Source of the DNA: Actinoplanes derwentensis
Lineage (GTDB): Bacteria > Actinomycetota > Actinomycetes > Mycobacteriales > Micromonosporaceae
Direction: 5' to 3'
Assembly (NCBI RefSeq): GCF_900104725.1
Contig: NZ_LT629758.1
Coordinates: 7,712,001-7,776,000 of the forward strand
DNA: 64,000 nucleotides
The notes under the pieces are model-generated. The model made no database searches. It was not told the DNA's origin and was given only the letters and a program-made list of their open reading frames with translations. Within the stretch, counting starts at the first letter, position 1. Every line of letters begins with the position of its first letter. The translations under genes were made by a program, and so were the position numbers. This document shows positions 3,711 through 13,807 of this stretch, piece after piece.

Positions 3711-4106
3711 CGCTGTTCTGTGGAAGAACGCTCTCGTCCGATATGGACTGTAGCGAACGGTCCGCCGCGACTGCCACCTTGATCGGCACCCGGGTTCGGT
3801 CGCTGAGGGGCGGGTGCCGGACGCGTCGGTGATTACCGTGTGCGCGCTGGGGCGGCGGATCGGCTTGGTTCGCTGCCGCCCGGGCGATCATGCGTGCTTG
3901 GTTCGGGTGGCGTGTGGAGCCGAGCGGCGGCCATCGCGTGGGGGAGAAACCTTGCGATAGAAAGACCGCCGCCCGGCGTCCTACAGGGTAGAGATGCAGA
4001 CGGAACGGCAGGTTGGCCGGACCTGACTCAACCGCCTGGCCGAACCAGTGACGCCAGGGCTAGCTGATCGGTGATCGACTCCGTCGCGCGTCGCCACCGC
4101 GGTGCT
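3711..4106. other. Intergenic region between IS110 end and RepA-like gene
   Basis: About 400 bp with no convincing gene. The short frame at 3840-4067 is Arg/Gly/Pro-rich and has no ribosome site. One element junction probably lies in the first part of this stretch. The rest would hold the terminator of the minus-strand RepA-like gene, which ends at 4107. Confidence 0.35.
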
Positions 4107-5579
4107 TCAGCGAAGCTGGTTGATCCGCACGCCGTCGGCGTCGACCGTGACCCGGCATCCTGGCATGCAGCCCAGCACTCTGCGGATCTGATGGTCGATC
4201 GCGTATCGGAACCGTGCTGCGTGCTCGGCTGGCGGCGACATCCTTCGGCGGGAGTCGTCTGCCCTATCCGCGGCCGGGGCGGGGAGTTCGCCTTTGTCGT
4301 TGCGTTCGCCGAAGCGTTGCCACATCTGGTCCCAGCTGTAGGTGACCGGTTCCAGGAACGTGCGGGCGTGGCGGGCGAGCCATTGGTAGAGCTCCAGGAG
4401 CCGGGCGTCGTGGGCGAGGTGATGAACGATCAGCGGGTCGAGGTGGACGGTCTCCCGGATGACCTGGTCGGTGAATTCGGCGGACAGGGTGAACTCCGCG
4501 TGGTGGGGGCCGTCGTCGCTCCACCTCCAGCCGATCATCAGGCGCCGGCTCACCTCGTAGGGATCGGCTGCTGAAGCCGGCCGGTCCATGCAGATCGTGG
4601 TGGTGAACAGCGCCTGTAACTGTTCGCGCACCCGAGCGGGCTCGTGAGCGGCGTCCTCGATGCCGTTACCGGCCAGGAACGCGTACAGGTCCCTGGTGTG
4701 CAACTCGCGCTGTCCGCCGATCAGGGCCTGCCCGCCGAGCCAGGCCAGCATCAGCCGCGCGATGTTCCCCCAGGGCAGCGTCCCGCCAGCCCGCTCCCCG
4801 GGTGCGCCGTGGTTTGGCCCGGCCGACAGGTACACGGCCGTCCCGCTGCGGCTGTCGGGGCGCAGCGGCCAGAACCTGGCCTCGTCCGAGGCGGCCTTCA
4901 CCGGGAGGCCGACGTGGGTACTGATCGCCGGCACGGCCAGGGTGCGGTGCCAGGCCAGCTCCGGGAAGCGGCGGCTGGCCTCGTGGGCTCGAAGGTTCCC
5001 GGCGTTGTGTTGATGGGTGTGCAGGTGGCGCAGCAGTCTGCTCGCCTGGGCGGCGTCGTGGGCGGATGTCGTGGCGGTCTGTTCGTCGGCGTTCACCGCG
5101 GTCTGTCGCCTCCACCGTGTTCCGCGCGGCAGAGCGTCGAGGAGTTTCTGTGCCTGTTGGCCGGTGCGGATGGTGACTTTGGCCGGGCCGCGGACCAGGT
5201 CGATGTCCTGCCTGTTCGGGCACGTCGCCCGGATGCCGGGGGCGCCGTACAGCTGCTTGTTGAGTCGCCGGGGCAGCAGCAGACGCAACAGGCGATCGGC
5301 GTGTTCCGGCTCGACGACCAGACGGATGCTCGTGGGCTCGGGGCTGACGAAGCGGATGGCCCGCAGGGTCGCGGTGTCGCTGCGCAGCAACGCCCAGACG
5401 TCGTGTTCGAGTTCGGCCTGCGCCCCGGAGGTCTCCGGGATGGCGGGGCCGGTCGTGCCGAGCATCTGCTTGGCGCGGCTGTAGCTCTCGTTGGTGTTCA
5501 GGGACCTGTCGAAGGCGGCCTGGCTGTACACAGTGGATCCTTGTCTCGACGTGAACGCCCGGCTCGCCACGTCGATCAT
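4107..5579 (-). CDS. Plasmid replication initiator-like protein (RepA type, tentative)
   Basis: A 490-aa soluble protein. The central part (residues ~240-420) reads like winged-helix plasmid initiators of the RepA_C kind: LPWGNIARLMLAWLGGQAL, then RELHTRDLYAFLAGNGI, REQLQALFTTTICMD, FTLSAEFTDQVIRETVHLD, and LLELYQWLARHARTF followed by SWDQMWQRFG. The N-terminal third is variable. A 16-bp palindrome covers the start codon, as expected for a self-regulated initiator. It is divergent from the AlpA-like gene across 240 bp. No obvious iterons are seen. A general DNA-binding or helicase-loader role is an alternative; the family call is from motif memory only. Confidence 0.45.
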   Translation of the reverse strand: MIDVASRAFTSRQGSTVYSQAAFDRSLNTNESYSRAKQMLGTTGPAIPETSGAQAELEHDVWALLRSDTATLRAIRFVSPEPTSIRLVVEPEHADRLLRLLLPRRLNKQLYGAPGIRATCPNRQDIDLVRGPAKVTIRTGQQAQKLLDALPRGTRWRRQTAVNADEQTATTSAHDAAQASRLLRHLHTHQHNAGNLRAHEASRRFPELAWHRTLAVPAISTHVGLPVKAASDEARFWPLRPDSRSGTAVYLSAGPNHGAPGERAGGTLPWGNIARLMLAWLGGQALIGGQRELHTRDLYAFLAGNGIEDAAHEPARVREQLQALFTTTICMDRPASAADPYEVSRRLMIGWRWSDDGPHHAEFTLSAEFTDQVIRETVHLDPLIVHHLAHDARLLELYQWLARHARTFLEPVTYSWDQMWQRFGERNDKGELPAPAADRADDSRRRMSPPAEHAARFRYAIDHQIRRVLGCMPGCRVTVDADGVRINQLR

Positions 5580-5586
5580 GATCGAC
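5571..5586. promoter_or_regulatory. 16-bp perfect palindrome over the RepA-like start codon
   Basis: GTCGATCATGATCGAC equals its own reverse complement and contains the initiation codon of the RepA-like gene (5577-5579). Its position suggests an operator at which the initiator, or the neighbouring AlpA-like protein, shuts off expression. Which protein binds is inference. Confidence 0.5.
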
Positions 5587-5784
5587 CGTGGGTGTTGAGT
5601 GACGGTGTTCGCTGGCTAGACCACAACCTGCGTGCTTTTTCGTCCGAACGAGCGTGGCGCTGTCAGCCGGGACACACCACTACAGACGAGGCATCTGCAC
5701 TACCTATGCCCGCACGCTACCGCACCCGTGCCGGTCGGCCGTCGACTGTTCACCCCATCGTGGCTGGCGGTGCGCCCACTGGTC

Positions 5785-5812
5785 TTGACACAGCTTGTCG
5801 TAAAACTATAGT
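5785..5812 (+). promoter_or_regulatory. Near-consensus promoter of the AlpA-like gene (leaderless)
   Basis: TTGACA at 5785-5790, 16-bp spacer, TATAGT at 5807-5812. The predicted start point about seven bases on coincides with the ATG at 5820, so the transcript would begin at or one base before the start codon. There is no Shine-Dalgarno sequence, which fits. Two copies of GTCGTA (5797-5802 and 5811-5816) flank the -10 box and could bind a regulator. Confidence 0.65.
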
Positions 5813-5819
5813 CGTAGAA

Positions 5820-6029
5820 ATGTCAGTGAAGCCGGTCCGTCTCATGGGCGCACACGAGATCCGTATCCGTCTCGGTGGCGTCAGCCGCCAGCGCGCCTAC
5901 CAGATCACCAGCAGGTCAGATTTTCCGACTCCGATCGCCGACCTGGCCCAGGGCAAGGTCTGGCTGATCGAGGATGTCGAGACGTGGATGAAGGCGCACC
6001 GGCGCGACGCGTCCGAGGACGATATCTAG
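5820..6029 (+). CDS. AlpA/excisionase-like helix-turn-helix protein
   Basis: 69 aa starting at ATG 5820, directly after a strong promoter and without a ribosome site. The sequence LMGAHEIRIRLGGVSRQRA, then ITSRSDFPTPIADLAQGKVW and DVETWMKAH, is the MerR-like fold of AlpA/Xis proteins: a first helix pair that reads DNA, a PxP turn, and a C-terminal W-x-x-xD-ETW helix. Such proteins control excision or early expression in phages, plasmids and integrative elements. It is divergent from the RepA-like gene and is followed by a terminator, so it is a single-gene transcript. A longer overlapping frame upstream is a shadow. Confidence 0.75.
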   Translation: MSVKPVRLMGAHEIRIRLGGVSRQRAYQITSRSDFPTPIADLAQGKVWLIEDVETWMKAHRRDASEDDI

Positions 6030-10280: not shown

Positions 10281-10609
10281 CCGGGACGTCCTCGAGGAGA
10301 CGAAGCCGGTCAGAGGGTAAGCCGGTCGAGTAGGTCACGCAGAGCCCTCAACCGGCGCTGCGTTTGTGGTTCCGGCGGACGGGTGAGGCTTAGCGGCCCG
10401 ATCTCGTGGATGACCGCACGGAACAGGACTTCCCGGTCTTCGTCGGTGTGAATCAGGCAGCCCCAGGAGGCCCGGCCCCGTTCACTGGCCAGGGTGGCGC
10501 GCAGTTCGCGTAGATGATCGGCGGGCTTACCGCTGGACCGCGCGATCTCGTGGTCAACAGCCTCAACCAGCGCGGCGCGATCGTCGTCGTCGTCACGCAG
10601 CAGACCGGA

Positions 10610-10741
10610 TGTGACTTTCGGCGATAGTTAGCACCCGGCCGCAGCCCACACGCTGGTCAGTGCCGTGGCGTTCGGCGATGGTTGGCACCGATTTCCGGTT
10701 TTAGTTGGCACCGGTACGGCTTTTCGGCGGTAGCTGGCACT
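10610..10741 (+). repeat. Left-end repeat cluster of the element (four copies)
   Basis: Four variants of TTTCGGCG(N)TAGTTGGCACC occur at 10610-10635 (with the outer TGTGAC), 10671-10689, 10692-10712 and 10721-10741. The shared 3' part is TAGTTGGCACC or a close form. Multiple subterminal copies are the likely transposase binding sites. Confidence 0.85.
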
Positions 10742-10903
10742 GGCTTGCTCCGACCGGCGCCGGATGTCCGTCACCCTCGGTAGCACGATGTTGGTCGGGT
10801 CTTCGGGGAGCGAGCGCTATCTGCGGCATGAGAGCGCACCAAGGGGCAAAGAGCAATGGCTTGCGTACGACTCTGTCGGTTGCGTTCCTGACGGATTTTT
10901 AGC

Positions 10904-11074
10904 TTACCGTCCGTCGTCCTTGCTTGCTCGCAAGCTTTCATATCGGTCAATAAGGCAATCGGCGCACTGGCCGCTCGCGTGTTTATTGGTTTGAAAATGT
11001 TGGCGCTCCTTTTGGGTGTGCACGTTGCAAACGTCTTCACATATGACGCACTGAGTTGGCAGCCTAGCCATCAT
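10904..11074 (-). CDS. Small zinc-finger protein, element cargo
   Basis: 56 aa. The start at ATG 11074 is chosen because AGAGGA lies about eight bases upstream; a longer frame reaches 11119. Two CxxC pairs, QCVICEDVC and QCADCLIDRY, enclose a His-rich segment (NVHTQKERQHFQTNKH), which should bind zinc. It is the second gene after the nuclease-like gene on the same strand, 81 bp downstream, so probably co-transcribed. The function is unknown; it could be a DNA-binding partner, antitoxin-like regulator or small HNH-related remnant. Confidence 0.6.
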   Translation of the reverse strand: MMARLPTQCVICEDVCNVHTQKERQHFQTNKHASGQCADCLIDRYESLRASKDDGR

Positions 11075-11155
11075 CCTTGATCCTCTCACGTCGGCGAGAC
11101 CCTGGTGGCTTACGCACAATCTGCAGGGGTTGGCCGATAGAATTCAAAGCTAATT

Positions 11156-11890
11156 CTATCGAATGACCTCATGCAAAATGTTGACCGCGGCATTAATCGT
11201 TGACCCGATTTTCGTGTCGTCCATTTGAATATGGATTCCTTGTGCTGCAGGTGACCGAGAAAAGAGTGAACCACTGAAAACTGTAAGCGGCTGACCGTAA
11301 CCCTCACCCGTGTGCCAATTCTGTGCAAGTCGCGCCTCCGTCCAGCAGCGTCCAGATCCAGCCGGAGCAGGCTGGGCTAGTAGCGGCGTCCATACGGCGA
11401 GGACCGGGCGTACCTCATGTTTTGAAAAATCTGCGGGCAGCGAGCCTCTGTCTAGATTTCCGAGGACCTTTGCGGCGGCTTTCCAAGCCAAAAACGTATG
11501 GCGCTCTATATCAAATTTCCATTCGTCCAGCCCTTGATGCCAGGACGCCCAGGCGTAGTCTTCGATCGGCCCATTTTTTGGTACCGCCTTTCCCTGGTAA
11601 CTGGAAGCGGTCCAAAATTTGTATTCAACCGAAAGAAGCTCTTGGATGCCGGACTTGTCCGCTACAACGATTGCATCGTCCAGAACCGCCCTGTTCCCAT
11701 TTACCTCAACCCTAGGGCGACATTTATTGAGCCGGGTCACACTCACGAATCTCTGCTGTAGGTGAGCGACCAGTAGTGCCCTGAGGATATCTTCGCCTGC
11801 CGCCTTACTCACAAGACCGACGGACGCCGTGCGCCTTCTTACCCGCTCGTCGAAATTCTTTACCAATGCTTGGATTTGAAGCTCCGGCAT
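11156..11890 (-). CDS. PD-(D/E)XK nuclease-like protein, element cargo
   Basis: 244 aa from ATG 11890, preferred because AGAGGA precedes it by seven bases (an in-frame extension to 12058 lacks one). The motif LDDAIVVAD (D71-D72), about 17 residues, then LLSVEYKFW (E89-x-K91) matches the PD-(D/E)XK core. Glu33 in the first helix could be the upstream acid. The C-terminal half has Trp-rich segments (AWASWHQGLDEW) and no known DNA-binding domain. Base composition is clearly lower in GC than neighbouring phage genes, a sign of transfer. Likely a restriction or abortive-defence effector; substrate unknown. Confidence 0.65.
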   Translation of the reverse strand: MPELQIQALVKNFDERVRRRTASVGLVSKAAGEDILRALLVAHLQQRFVSVTRLNKCRPRVEVNGNRAVLDDAIVVADKSGIQELLSVEYKFWTASSYQGKAVPKNGPIEDYAWASWHQGLDEWKFDIERHTFLAWKAAAKVLGNLDRGSLPADFSKHEVRPVLAVWTPLLAQPAPAGSGRCWTEARLAQNWHTGEGYGQPLTVFSGSLFSRSPAAQGIHIQMDDTKIGSTINAAVNILHEVIR

Positions 11891-12066
11891 GTCGTTCCTC
11901 TGGCTCGGCAATATGCTCCGGAATTCTAGTTCACGTCGACCGTAGGTGGGTCCGTATGCACGCATTCTCATCGGCAAATCCCTGCTTAGGCAACCTCGCG
12001 GGCCCGTGACGGAGGGTAGCCAAGAGGCTCGTGGTTGCGGCTTCCACTGGCGCCGCATCGGCGACC

Positions 12067-12112
12067 GGTGTCAACAAGCCCTGAAAAGTGCCAACTAGGA
12101 CCGAAAGTCACA
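12067..12112 (-). repeat. Right-end inverted repeats of the element
   Basis: The outer copy is 12088-12112 (GTGCCAACTAGGACCGAAAG then TCACA), the inverse of the left end. A degenerate inner copy lies at about 12067-12087 (GGTGTCAACAAG...TGAAAA). The terminal CA is followed directly by the CCGGA duplication. Confidence 0.8.
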
Positions 12113-12218
12113 CCGGACCAGGCGATCCGGCCTTTCGGTGCGACGGTCATACCGTCGAATGGCACATGCGTTCGATCATGCGGTGTGGGGGTGTGGCGGG
12201 TCTGGCTGCTGTCTTGCT

Positions 12219-12263
12219 GTGACTTTCGGTTCCAGTTGGCACCTTTCGGCGTTAGTTGGCACC
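12219..12263 (+). repeat. Solo extra copy of the element left end
   Basis: TGTGACTTTCGGTTCCAGTT then GGCACC (12219-12243) and a second unit TTTCGGCGTTAGTTGGCACC (12244-12263) repeat the left-end pattern, in the same direction, 107 bp beyond the right end of the intact element. No matching inverted end was found before 13381. It may be the remnant of a second insertion that brought the CHAT gene. Confidence 0.7.
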
Positions 12264-13381: not shown

Positions 13382-13807
13382 GTGTCGCACTGGTACCGCG
13401 GCCGCTGGTCGGACGTCTATCGCGACGTTCCCACCATCCCCGGGCAAGTGCGGCCATCAGCGGCGATCAAGGCCCGCGGCAGAACACCGCACACCGGCGT
13501 GATCGGCACCGGCGGCTACGAGTACGGGGCGACCCGGCTCGCCCGGTCGGTGCTGCGGGTGCGCTCGATGCACCGGCGCGCGATCCATCCGACGCAGAAT
13601 CCGGTCGGCCTGCTCGACCCGCTGATCCGCTACGGGTGTCCGCCTGGCGGACTAGTCATCGATCCGTGCGCCGGATCCGCATCGACCGGCGTCGCAGCCC
13701 GCGCGGCGGGCCGCCGCGCGCTACTCGTCGAGGCCGACGAGGCGATGTGCGAGGCCGCGGCTCGCAGGCTTGCCGACCCGCAACAGCTCGGCCTGGACGC
13801 CGGATAG
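13382..13807 (+). pseudogene. C-terminal fragment of a DNA methyltransferase (N6/N4 class)
   Basis: The open frame starts just after an in-frame stop three codons upstream of GTG 13382. It encodes the second half of an N6-adenine/N4-cytosine methylase: HPTQNPVGLLDPLIR, then the SAM-binding motif VIDPCAGSASTGVAARAAG and LVEADEAMCEAAARRL. The N-terminal half with the catalytic DPPY/NPPY motif is missing, and no copy of it is found nearby. It lies directly right of the CHAT region, so the missing half was probably deleted when that DNA arrived. Activity is not expected. It is still in step with the phage late operon. Confidence 0.7.

Follow-up and report, generated by a model that had tools for sequence, protein, structure and literature searches.

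Here we report that a 64,000-nucleotide stretch of the Actinoplanes derwentensis genome (the window, whose coordinates are used throughout unless a locus or genome is named; it starts at 7712001 in a 10.65-Mb single-contig genome) contains a real and precise insertion of a transposase-less, cargo-carrying element, E1, in a prophage gene. In light of sequence comparisons with related genomes, E1 is very probably a non-autonomous derivative of an actinobacterial Tn7-like transposon (of the kind encoding TnsA, TnsB, TnsC and TniQ) that was moved in trans.

The insertion was recognized in an original prediction made from the sequence alone, which described 1503 base pairs (bp) with TGTGAC...GTCACA ends between two perfect copies of CCGGA; both its boundaries and its length proved exact (Table 1). 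When the flanks are rejoined, minus the element and one copy of the duplication, the minus strand shows an open frame of 110 codons between 12150 and 10310, again as predicted. Used alone as a query, the downstream piece (10313-10609, minus strand, 99 amino acids (aa)) finds two 109-aa proteins from the Joint Genome Institute (JGI), P0007 and P0008, which are 76% and 72% identical to it and are encoded on contigs of 1.1 to 1.5 kb. Both begin with MTAAPKGRIAW, where the DNA upstream of the insertion encodes MTVAPKGRIAW, a match at 10 of 11 residues. Because residues of the upstream flank stand at the N-terminus of these homologues, the empty site is confirmed, and the intact gene that the original prediction had proposed seeking exists elsewhere.

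The surrounding region contains genes for a terminase small subunit, a terminase large subunit and a portal-like protein (Pfam; large-subunit and portal matches just under the cut-off), and 1987 phage records match the terminase large subunit. No empty site came from a viral contig: the sole relative by terminase in IMG/VR, L140 (82% identical), is without the 110-codon gene, and, having other genes between terminase and portal, speaks neither for nor against an empty site. The exact end patterns were not found in IMG/VR, and the plasmid and phage collections each gave a single match at chance level (27 and 34 bp) and none for the whole region.

Table 1. Features of the E1 insertion and its neighborhood, in window coordinates.
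Feature	Position	Strand	Basis
Interrupted prophage gene, remainder, 99 codons + stop	10310..10609	-	rejoined frame, homologues
Target-site duplication CCGGA, left copy	10605..10609		identical to 12113-12117
E1, transposase-less Tn7-like element (very probable family), TGTGAC...GTCACA, 1503 bp	10610..12112		sequence, end scan
A-type end, four ~20-bp repeat sites, candidate TnsB-binding sites	10610..10741	+	weight matrix
Conserved A-arm	10610..10828	+	blastn
56-codon open reading frame (ORF), two Cys pairs + His, zinc-ribbon-like by eye	10904..11074	-	no family over cut-off
Cargo gene, 244 aa, candidate PD-(D/E)XK nuclease	11156..11890	-	homologues, alignment
B-type end, two abutting repeat sites (12087-12106, 12067-12086)	12067..12112	-	weight matrix
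Target-site duplication CCGGA, right copy	12113..12117		sequence
Interrupted prophage gene, first 11 codons	12118..12150	-	match to N-termini of P0007, P0008
Orphan B-type end of E2, sites 12224-12243 + 12244-12263	12218..12263	+	end scan
CHAT-fold protease-like gene, 210 aa	12501..13133	-	Pfam CHAT below cut-off; AlphaFold pLDDT 89.7
Phage N6/N4 DNA methylase, C-terminal remnant, 5' part missing	13382..13807	+	Pfam PF01555 profile positions 160-220 of 221

E1 is not alone in using these ends. We searched 354 Micromonosporaceae genomes, including the window's own, and all 16 that matched were opened, in stretches that ran up to 20 kb or to the contig end (loci are given L numbers and genomes G numbers), so that the search suggested by the original prediction did yield other elements with the same ends. 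The exact end pattern occurred in just two stretches of the genome_contigs collection, from Actinoplanes sp. NBRC 103695 and Paractinoplanes toevensis, and mismatched searches of whole genomes were therefore used; the pattern, derived from the window and its earliest-found relatives, favors near kin. Nine elements, E1 included, have both ends, and eight of them are flanked by an exact 5-bp duplication, the ninth (the left element of L039) agreeing at four of five bases; two random 5-mers of the window agree with a probability of 0.002. For all nine, the ends were placed with either the site scan or the end pattern, which take no account of the flanks; other partner-ranking steps did use flank agreement. 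L103 provides a tenth duplication, but its search required one of 5 bp. Insertion sites in L060 and L129 show no clear interrupted gene among the frames across them, and those in L038 and L131 show open frames of uncertain standing.

The nine comprise two elements with complete tns modules (L126 and L144), one with a decayed module (L061), and six without an intact tns gene (E1, L039-left, L131, L129, L038 and L060). Ten single ends fall outside this count (12218 in the window, L039 6535, L124, L125, L127, L128, L130, L141, L142 and L143); their partners may have diverged, been deleted, or lie beyond the opened stretch, and a full tns module adjoins the one in L143. L062 and L040 contain isolated or decayed sites only, those of L040 (4781-4852, equivalent to G000:C1:2744780-2744851) being decayed A-end sites of the same group in the host genome itself, with no element around them. 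In Paractinoplanes toevensis, two elements of the group lie 4 bp apart (L039 4968-6530 and 6535 onwards), B-end followed by A-end; the second has no partner end before the contig stops.

The two ends of E1 are inverted copies of TGTGACTTTCGG, at 10610 (+) and 12112 (-), and the window holds three such 12-mers with at most one mismatch, against 0.17 expected. The multiple subterminal repeats of the original prediction are borne out by a 20-mer that occurs seven times in the window with at most three mismatches, against 0.02 expected. Scanning with a weight matrix distinguishes two kinds of end, a systematic difference that had not been predicted: A-ends with sites at offsets 6, 60-61, 83-84 and 110-114, and B-ends with sites at 6 and 25-26. 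The A-end of E1 (offsets 6, 60, 83 and 112; sites 10616-10635, 10670-10689, 10693-10712 and 10722-10741) is matched within 2 bp by L038, L060, L061, L126, L129, L131 and both A-ends of L039. Each typable paired element has one A-end and one B-end, the same offsets recur around different interiors, and the same scan found no end in 20 mononucleotide shuffles of the window.

Similarity extends beyond the sites themselves. By blastn the A-arm of E1 shares 76-77% identity with the arms of the two L039 elements (over 219 and 181 bp) and also resembles those of L038 and L141 over 158-170 bp; across these five the A-arms are 76-78% identical, and the interiors did not align. Judged by alignment, this is the same vehicle with different freight, homologous arms enclosing different interiors. 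Tn7 has TGT...ACA termini and generates 5-bp duplications. E1 has both features, together with asymmetric arrays of ~20-bp sites that are differently arranged at its two ends. Such subterminal site arrays are a general feature of Tn7-like transposons, as described in a published census (PMC8649781).

The family assignment is decided by elements that combine these ends with transposition genes. In L126 (G147) and L144 (G352), ends of the E1 type bound genes for TnsA, TnsB, TnsC/TniB and TniQ, with duplications ATGGT and CGGGT; TniB and TniQ exceed the Pfam cut-off, and the TnsA and TnsB-domain matches fall under it. L061 (G013) has ends of the E1 type, a CCCGG duplication and a TnsA of subfamily NF033179 (E 1e-41); its TnsB breaks off after about 320 residues and is 60% identical to that of L103, and a TniQ-like stretch (30% identity) follows. 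L103 (G081), found via its TnsA, has a full tns module, a TCTGA duplication and more distant ends; its TnsA, like that of L061, exceeds the NF033179 cut-off, and its TnsB is 64% identical to that of L126 over their length. As end sequence and site spacing are common to E1, L126, L144 and the decayed L061, and as the same asymmetric arrays bound TnsA/TnsB/TnsC/TniQ elements, we assign the family as Tn7-like, within the actinobacterial TnsA group. E1 does not itself encode TnsB: no tns gene was matched in the window, none in E1 even at E 0.5, and searches of the host genome detected neither TnsA nor TnsB of this group. We therefore file E1 as a non-autonomous derivative and not as a strict member of the family. 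P0001, considered as a displaced TnsA, was ruled out, as it has no similarity to the TnsA of L103. Among 67 genomes of the genus, 22 contain a TnsA-like match, 16 of them over the cut-off.

The original prediction had instead placed E1 in the IS21 family, as a transposase-less derivative that would be mobilized by IstA/IstB. IS21 elements likewise have repeated subterminal sites and short duplications, and the host genome contains three 100% identical IS21 copies of 2732 bp (G000:C1:836064, 2847457 and 10275866; L063-L065), which were probably active recently. These copies have 59-bp terminal repeats with termini TGGCTATGACGGTTG... and 6-bp duplications, and the site consensus matches each of them once, internally and with five mismatches. 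The two longest frames of one copy, of 551 (IstA-like) and 382 residues, matched nothing in any of the 23 loci compared, E1's among them, IstB not having been identified separately. The unrelated termini (TGGCTATGACGG...), the 6-bp duplications and the missing IstA match lead us to reject IS21 as the source of the ends; with arrays of the E1 type bounding TnsA/B/C/TniQ modules, an IS21 origin is highly improbable and this part of the prediction is abandoned.

How Tn7-like ends came to be without tns genes is suggested by remnants in related elements. L126 has tnsA beside its A-end and tniQ beside its B-end. In L129 a tnsA stump of 43 residues is left (58% identity, E 2e-08), 239 bp inward of the A-end, and at the solo end L130 what may be the C-terminal stump of TniQ lies 0.9-1.0 kb inward of the B-end (E 3e-06, small database). 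Since the stumps lie on the sides corresponding to L126, at least some of the tns-less forms came about when the middle was lost or replaced. On our reading, E1 kept both cis-acting ends, while everything between them was lost or gave way to a single main cargo gene. TnsB, with TnsA and TnsC, would have come from an autonomous relative present in that cell; TnsB would bind the A- and B-arrays and pair the ends, TnsA/TnsB would excise E1, and TnsC with a target selector would direct it to the target, where 5-bp staggered joining would produce the CCGGA duplication and split the 110-codon gene. The helper would since have gone from the cell, or would have stayed in the donor. We infer TnsB binding, movement in trans and the helper's loss or residence in the donor from this anatomy. 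The original prediction of a transposase-less cargo element mobilized in trans accordingly survives in its first part, through the missing tns genes and the other elements with the same ends, and in its second part as the most likely mechanism.

No match to TnsB was found in G009 or G196, G005 has a 72-residue TnsB stump only, and G013 has the cut TnsB only; as neither TnsA nor TnsB of the group was detectable in the host itself, helpers appear to have acted elsewhere or to have been lost. In G163, the genome containing L131, a full tns module (L162) lies on another contig of a draft marked as 10% contaminated.

The same observations could be explained by E1 being a dead remnant, an autonomous Tn7-like transposon that lost its tns genes by deletion after insertion and never moved in trans. 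Decay of tns genes inside such ends is indeed seen in L061 and L129, and the host's want of detectable TnsA and TnsB fits as well. We consider a remnant unlikely, as the duplication is perfect, the interrupted frame is still open and no trace of tns is left in the 1503 bp of E1; moreover, six of the nine paired elements have no intact tns genes, and two of them, E1 and L039-left (1503 and 1563 bp), have one main gene each. A derivative moved in trans thus remains our preferred explanation.

The main gene of E1 is most likely 11156-11890 and not a longer, 300-aa ORF, a point absent from the original prediction, given the 244-aa length of database entry P0003 and of its relatives, which occur in Micromonospora tulbaghiae, on a metagenome contig and, in shortened form, in Paractinoplanes lichenicola. 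Residues E33, D71 and E89-Y-K91 are invariant in the four aligned sequences (the window's own and three relatives), and E33, D71, E89 and K91 form what we take to be the residue pattern of PD-(D/E)XK nucleases. Where PD-(D/E)XK nucleases have an alpha-beta-beta-beta core with conserved E, D and ExK, the structure model predicts a helix (29-47) and strands (66-77 and 83-92) at low confidence (predicted local distance difference test (pLDDT) 44). No Pfam, PADLOC or NCBIfam family matched the protein, nor did any PDB sequence significantly (best E 0.27). These residues make the cargo a candidate, and in our view a probable, stand-alone nuclease of the PD-(D/E)XK type; the nuclease of the original prediction is retained as a motif-level guess, and this is the weakest step of the argument. 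Such a nuclease could act in phage-phage conflict or against other mobile DNA. G032 is the only other one of the 67 genus genomes with the cargo gene, where it is split in two frames. The small zinc-ribbon-like ORF at 10904..11074 may or may not be a gene.

L131 carries a NACHT ATPase of 759 aa; L129 carries EACC1 along with a caspase domain and WD40 repeats, the caspase and WD40 frames overlapping, perhaps as one broken gene; and L038 carries a helicase matched by HamB models (E 8e-59) and better by PDC-M23B (1e-67), with a 310-aa partner without a match, where Hachiman pairs the HamB helicase with HamA. The single 396-aa gene of L039-left gives a hint of Shedu below the threshold (E 0.2), and L060 contains PAF-acetylhydrolase-like (esterase-like) and DUF3626 genes. 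Just outside the Hachiman-like element of L038, at 3756-5917, are two genes of 515 and 205 aa that may be another conflict module; to the eye, the 205-aa product has a nuclease-like stretch.

Several observations qualify or weigh against our account of E1 and its relatives. The right end of L144 shows only two A sites, and the sites of L103 score weakly. The site matrix was trained on the terminal A-end site and both B-end sites, leaving A-end sites 2-4 as the independent ones. L126, the closest tns-bearing element by end sequence, belongs to another genus and has sites that are similar, not identical. The TniQ stump of L130 was not seen at E 1e-4 in another search, and L162, tried as a resident helper for L131, was rejected because its visible end is unlike either end of that element. 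Nor was transposition itself seen, the mechanism being drawn from anatomy. The sample of paired elements is small, and the cargo of L060 is not obviously immune. The nuclease assignment comes down to four residues, and the protein's structure model is a poor one. The cargo relative in G032 (L148) aligns with E1 over 762 bp of the gene region only and has no such ends around it, so that the cargo is not tied to the element. Finally, defense cargo, including Hachiman, is already known from tns-bearing Tn7-like transposons, as the census reports (PMC8649781).

A second element, E2, appears to have stood beside E1. The third end in the window, at 12218 (+), went unmentioned in the original prediction; it is a B-end that faces right, 105 bp from E1, and no A-end partner for it was found in the window. 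Beside it, in low-GC DNA, lies a gene for a 210-aa protein whose best PDB match is the SAVED-CHAT protein 8tl0_C (E 4.9e-08), with caspases, separase and Craspase among the top matches, and whose relatives occur in Cellulomonas chitinilytica and metagenomes. Its predicted structure has the CHAT/caspase fold with a His and a Cys, and H85 and C124 are invariant in 13 sequences. This gene is likely the cargo of E2. The phage methylase gene beyond it is reduced to its C-terminal part, and from this we infer that the far end of E2 was probably lost in a deletion that also took the 5' part of the methylase gene.

Non-autonomous passengers of simple insertion sequences (IS) and of Tn3 are known. Mobile insertion cassettes, or transporter IS, consist of transposon ends without a transposase, carry a passenger gene and move in trans; E1 resembles them in its ends, its passenger gene, its lack of a transposase and its proposed movement, and differs in that its ends are Tn7-like multi-site arrays, which would need the heteromeric TnsA/B/C, where theirs derive from IS. 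Non-autonomous derivatives of the Tn3 family, which move or mobilize genes, usually have no gene of their own between their ends; E1 is a transposon derivative of this non-autonomous sort, from another family and with a gene between its ends.

Among Tn7-like transposons, a TnsB clade is dominated by Actinobacteria (Benler et al. 2021, PMC8649781). E1 resembles these transposons in the ~20-bp subterminal site arrays at both ends and, for the group, in cargo that includes defense genes; the adjacent E1 and E2 ends at 12112 and 12218 are likewise reminiscent of elements described there as inserted in or beside one another and leaving multiple ends. Unlike the transposons of the census, E1 encodes no core gene and is 1.5 kb long. 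The census required tnsB and another core gene, so that elements without tnsB could not be included (PMC8649781). EACC1 is a two-gene conflict system (Kaur et al. 2020, eLife, PMC7159879), which shares EACC1, the caspase domain and WD40 repeats with L129; in L129 the module makes up almost all of the cargo, in an element with no intact tns genes, and such a vehicle goes unmentioned in the passages of that article found by term search. In the literature searched, mostly by titles and abstract openings, we found no description of Tn7-like cassettes without tns genes.

Our preferred explanation can be extended by viewing the cassette as a dedicated, recurrent, helper-dependent vehicle that captures small conflict modules, and not as a set of chance deletion derivatives. 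This extension is possible but somewhat doubtful. Different cargo lies between homologous arms (76-78% identical in E1, both L039 elements, L038 and L141), and immune-type cargo is found in L129, L131 and L038 and beside the orphan end of E2. On the other side, no capture mechanism is visible, L060 carries its esterase-like gene and DUF3626, and the sample, itself small, comes from a pattern based on few ends. Nor is immune cargo alone the mark of a new vehicle, given the defense genes, Hachiman included, that tns-bearing relatives carry in the census (PMC8649781).

Based on these observations, we suggest, with a confidence that approaches an even chance, that Micromonosporaceae, and perhaps actinomycetes at large, carry helper-dependent Tn7-like cassettes with fixed multi-site ends and an exchangeable, often conflict-type module (nuclease, CHAT protease, NACHT, EACC1-caspase, Hachiman-like), able to enter prophages and unseen because the cargo survey started from tnsB. 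Tn7-like transposons are known carriers of defense systems and have so far been counted from the transposase outwards, while several of the six tns-less elements are little more than one immune-type module. If this is true more widely, searches that begin with the ends would uncover an unseen layer of defense-gene traffic and would provide clean boundaries for small candidate defense systems, and the heteromeric TnsABC machinery would have parasites of its own, as simple IS do. Insertion into a prophage, as in E1, puts such a module on a vehicle able to leave the cell.

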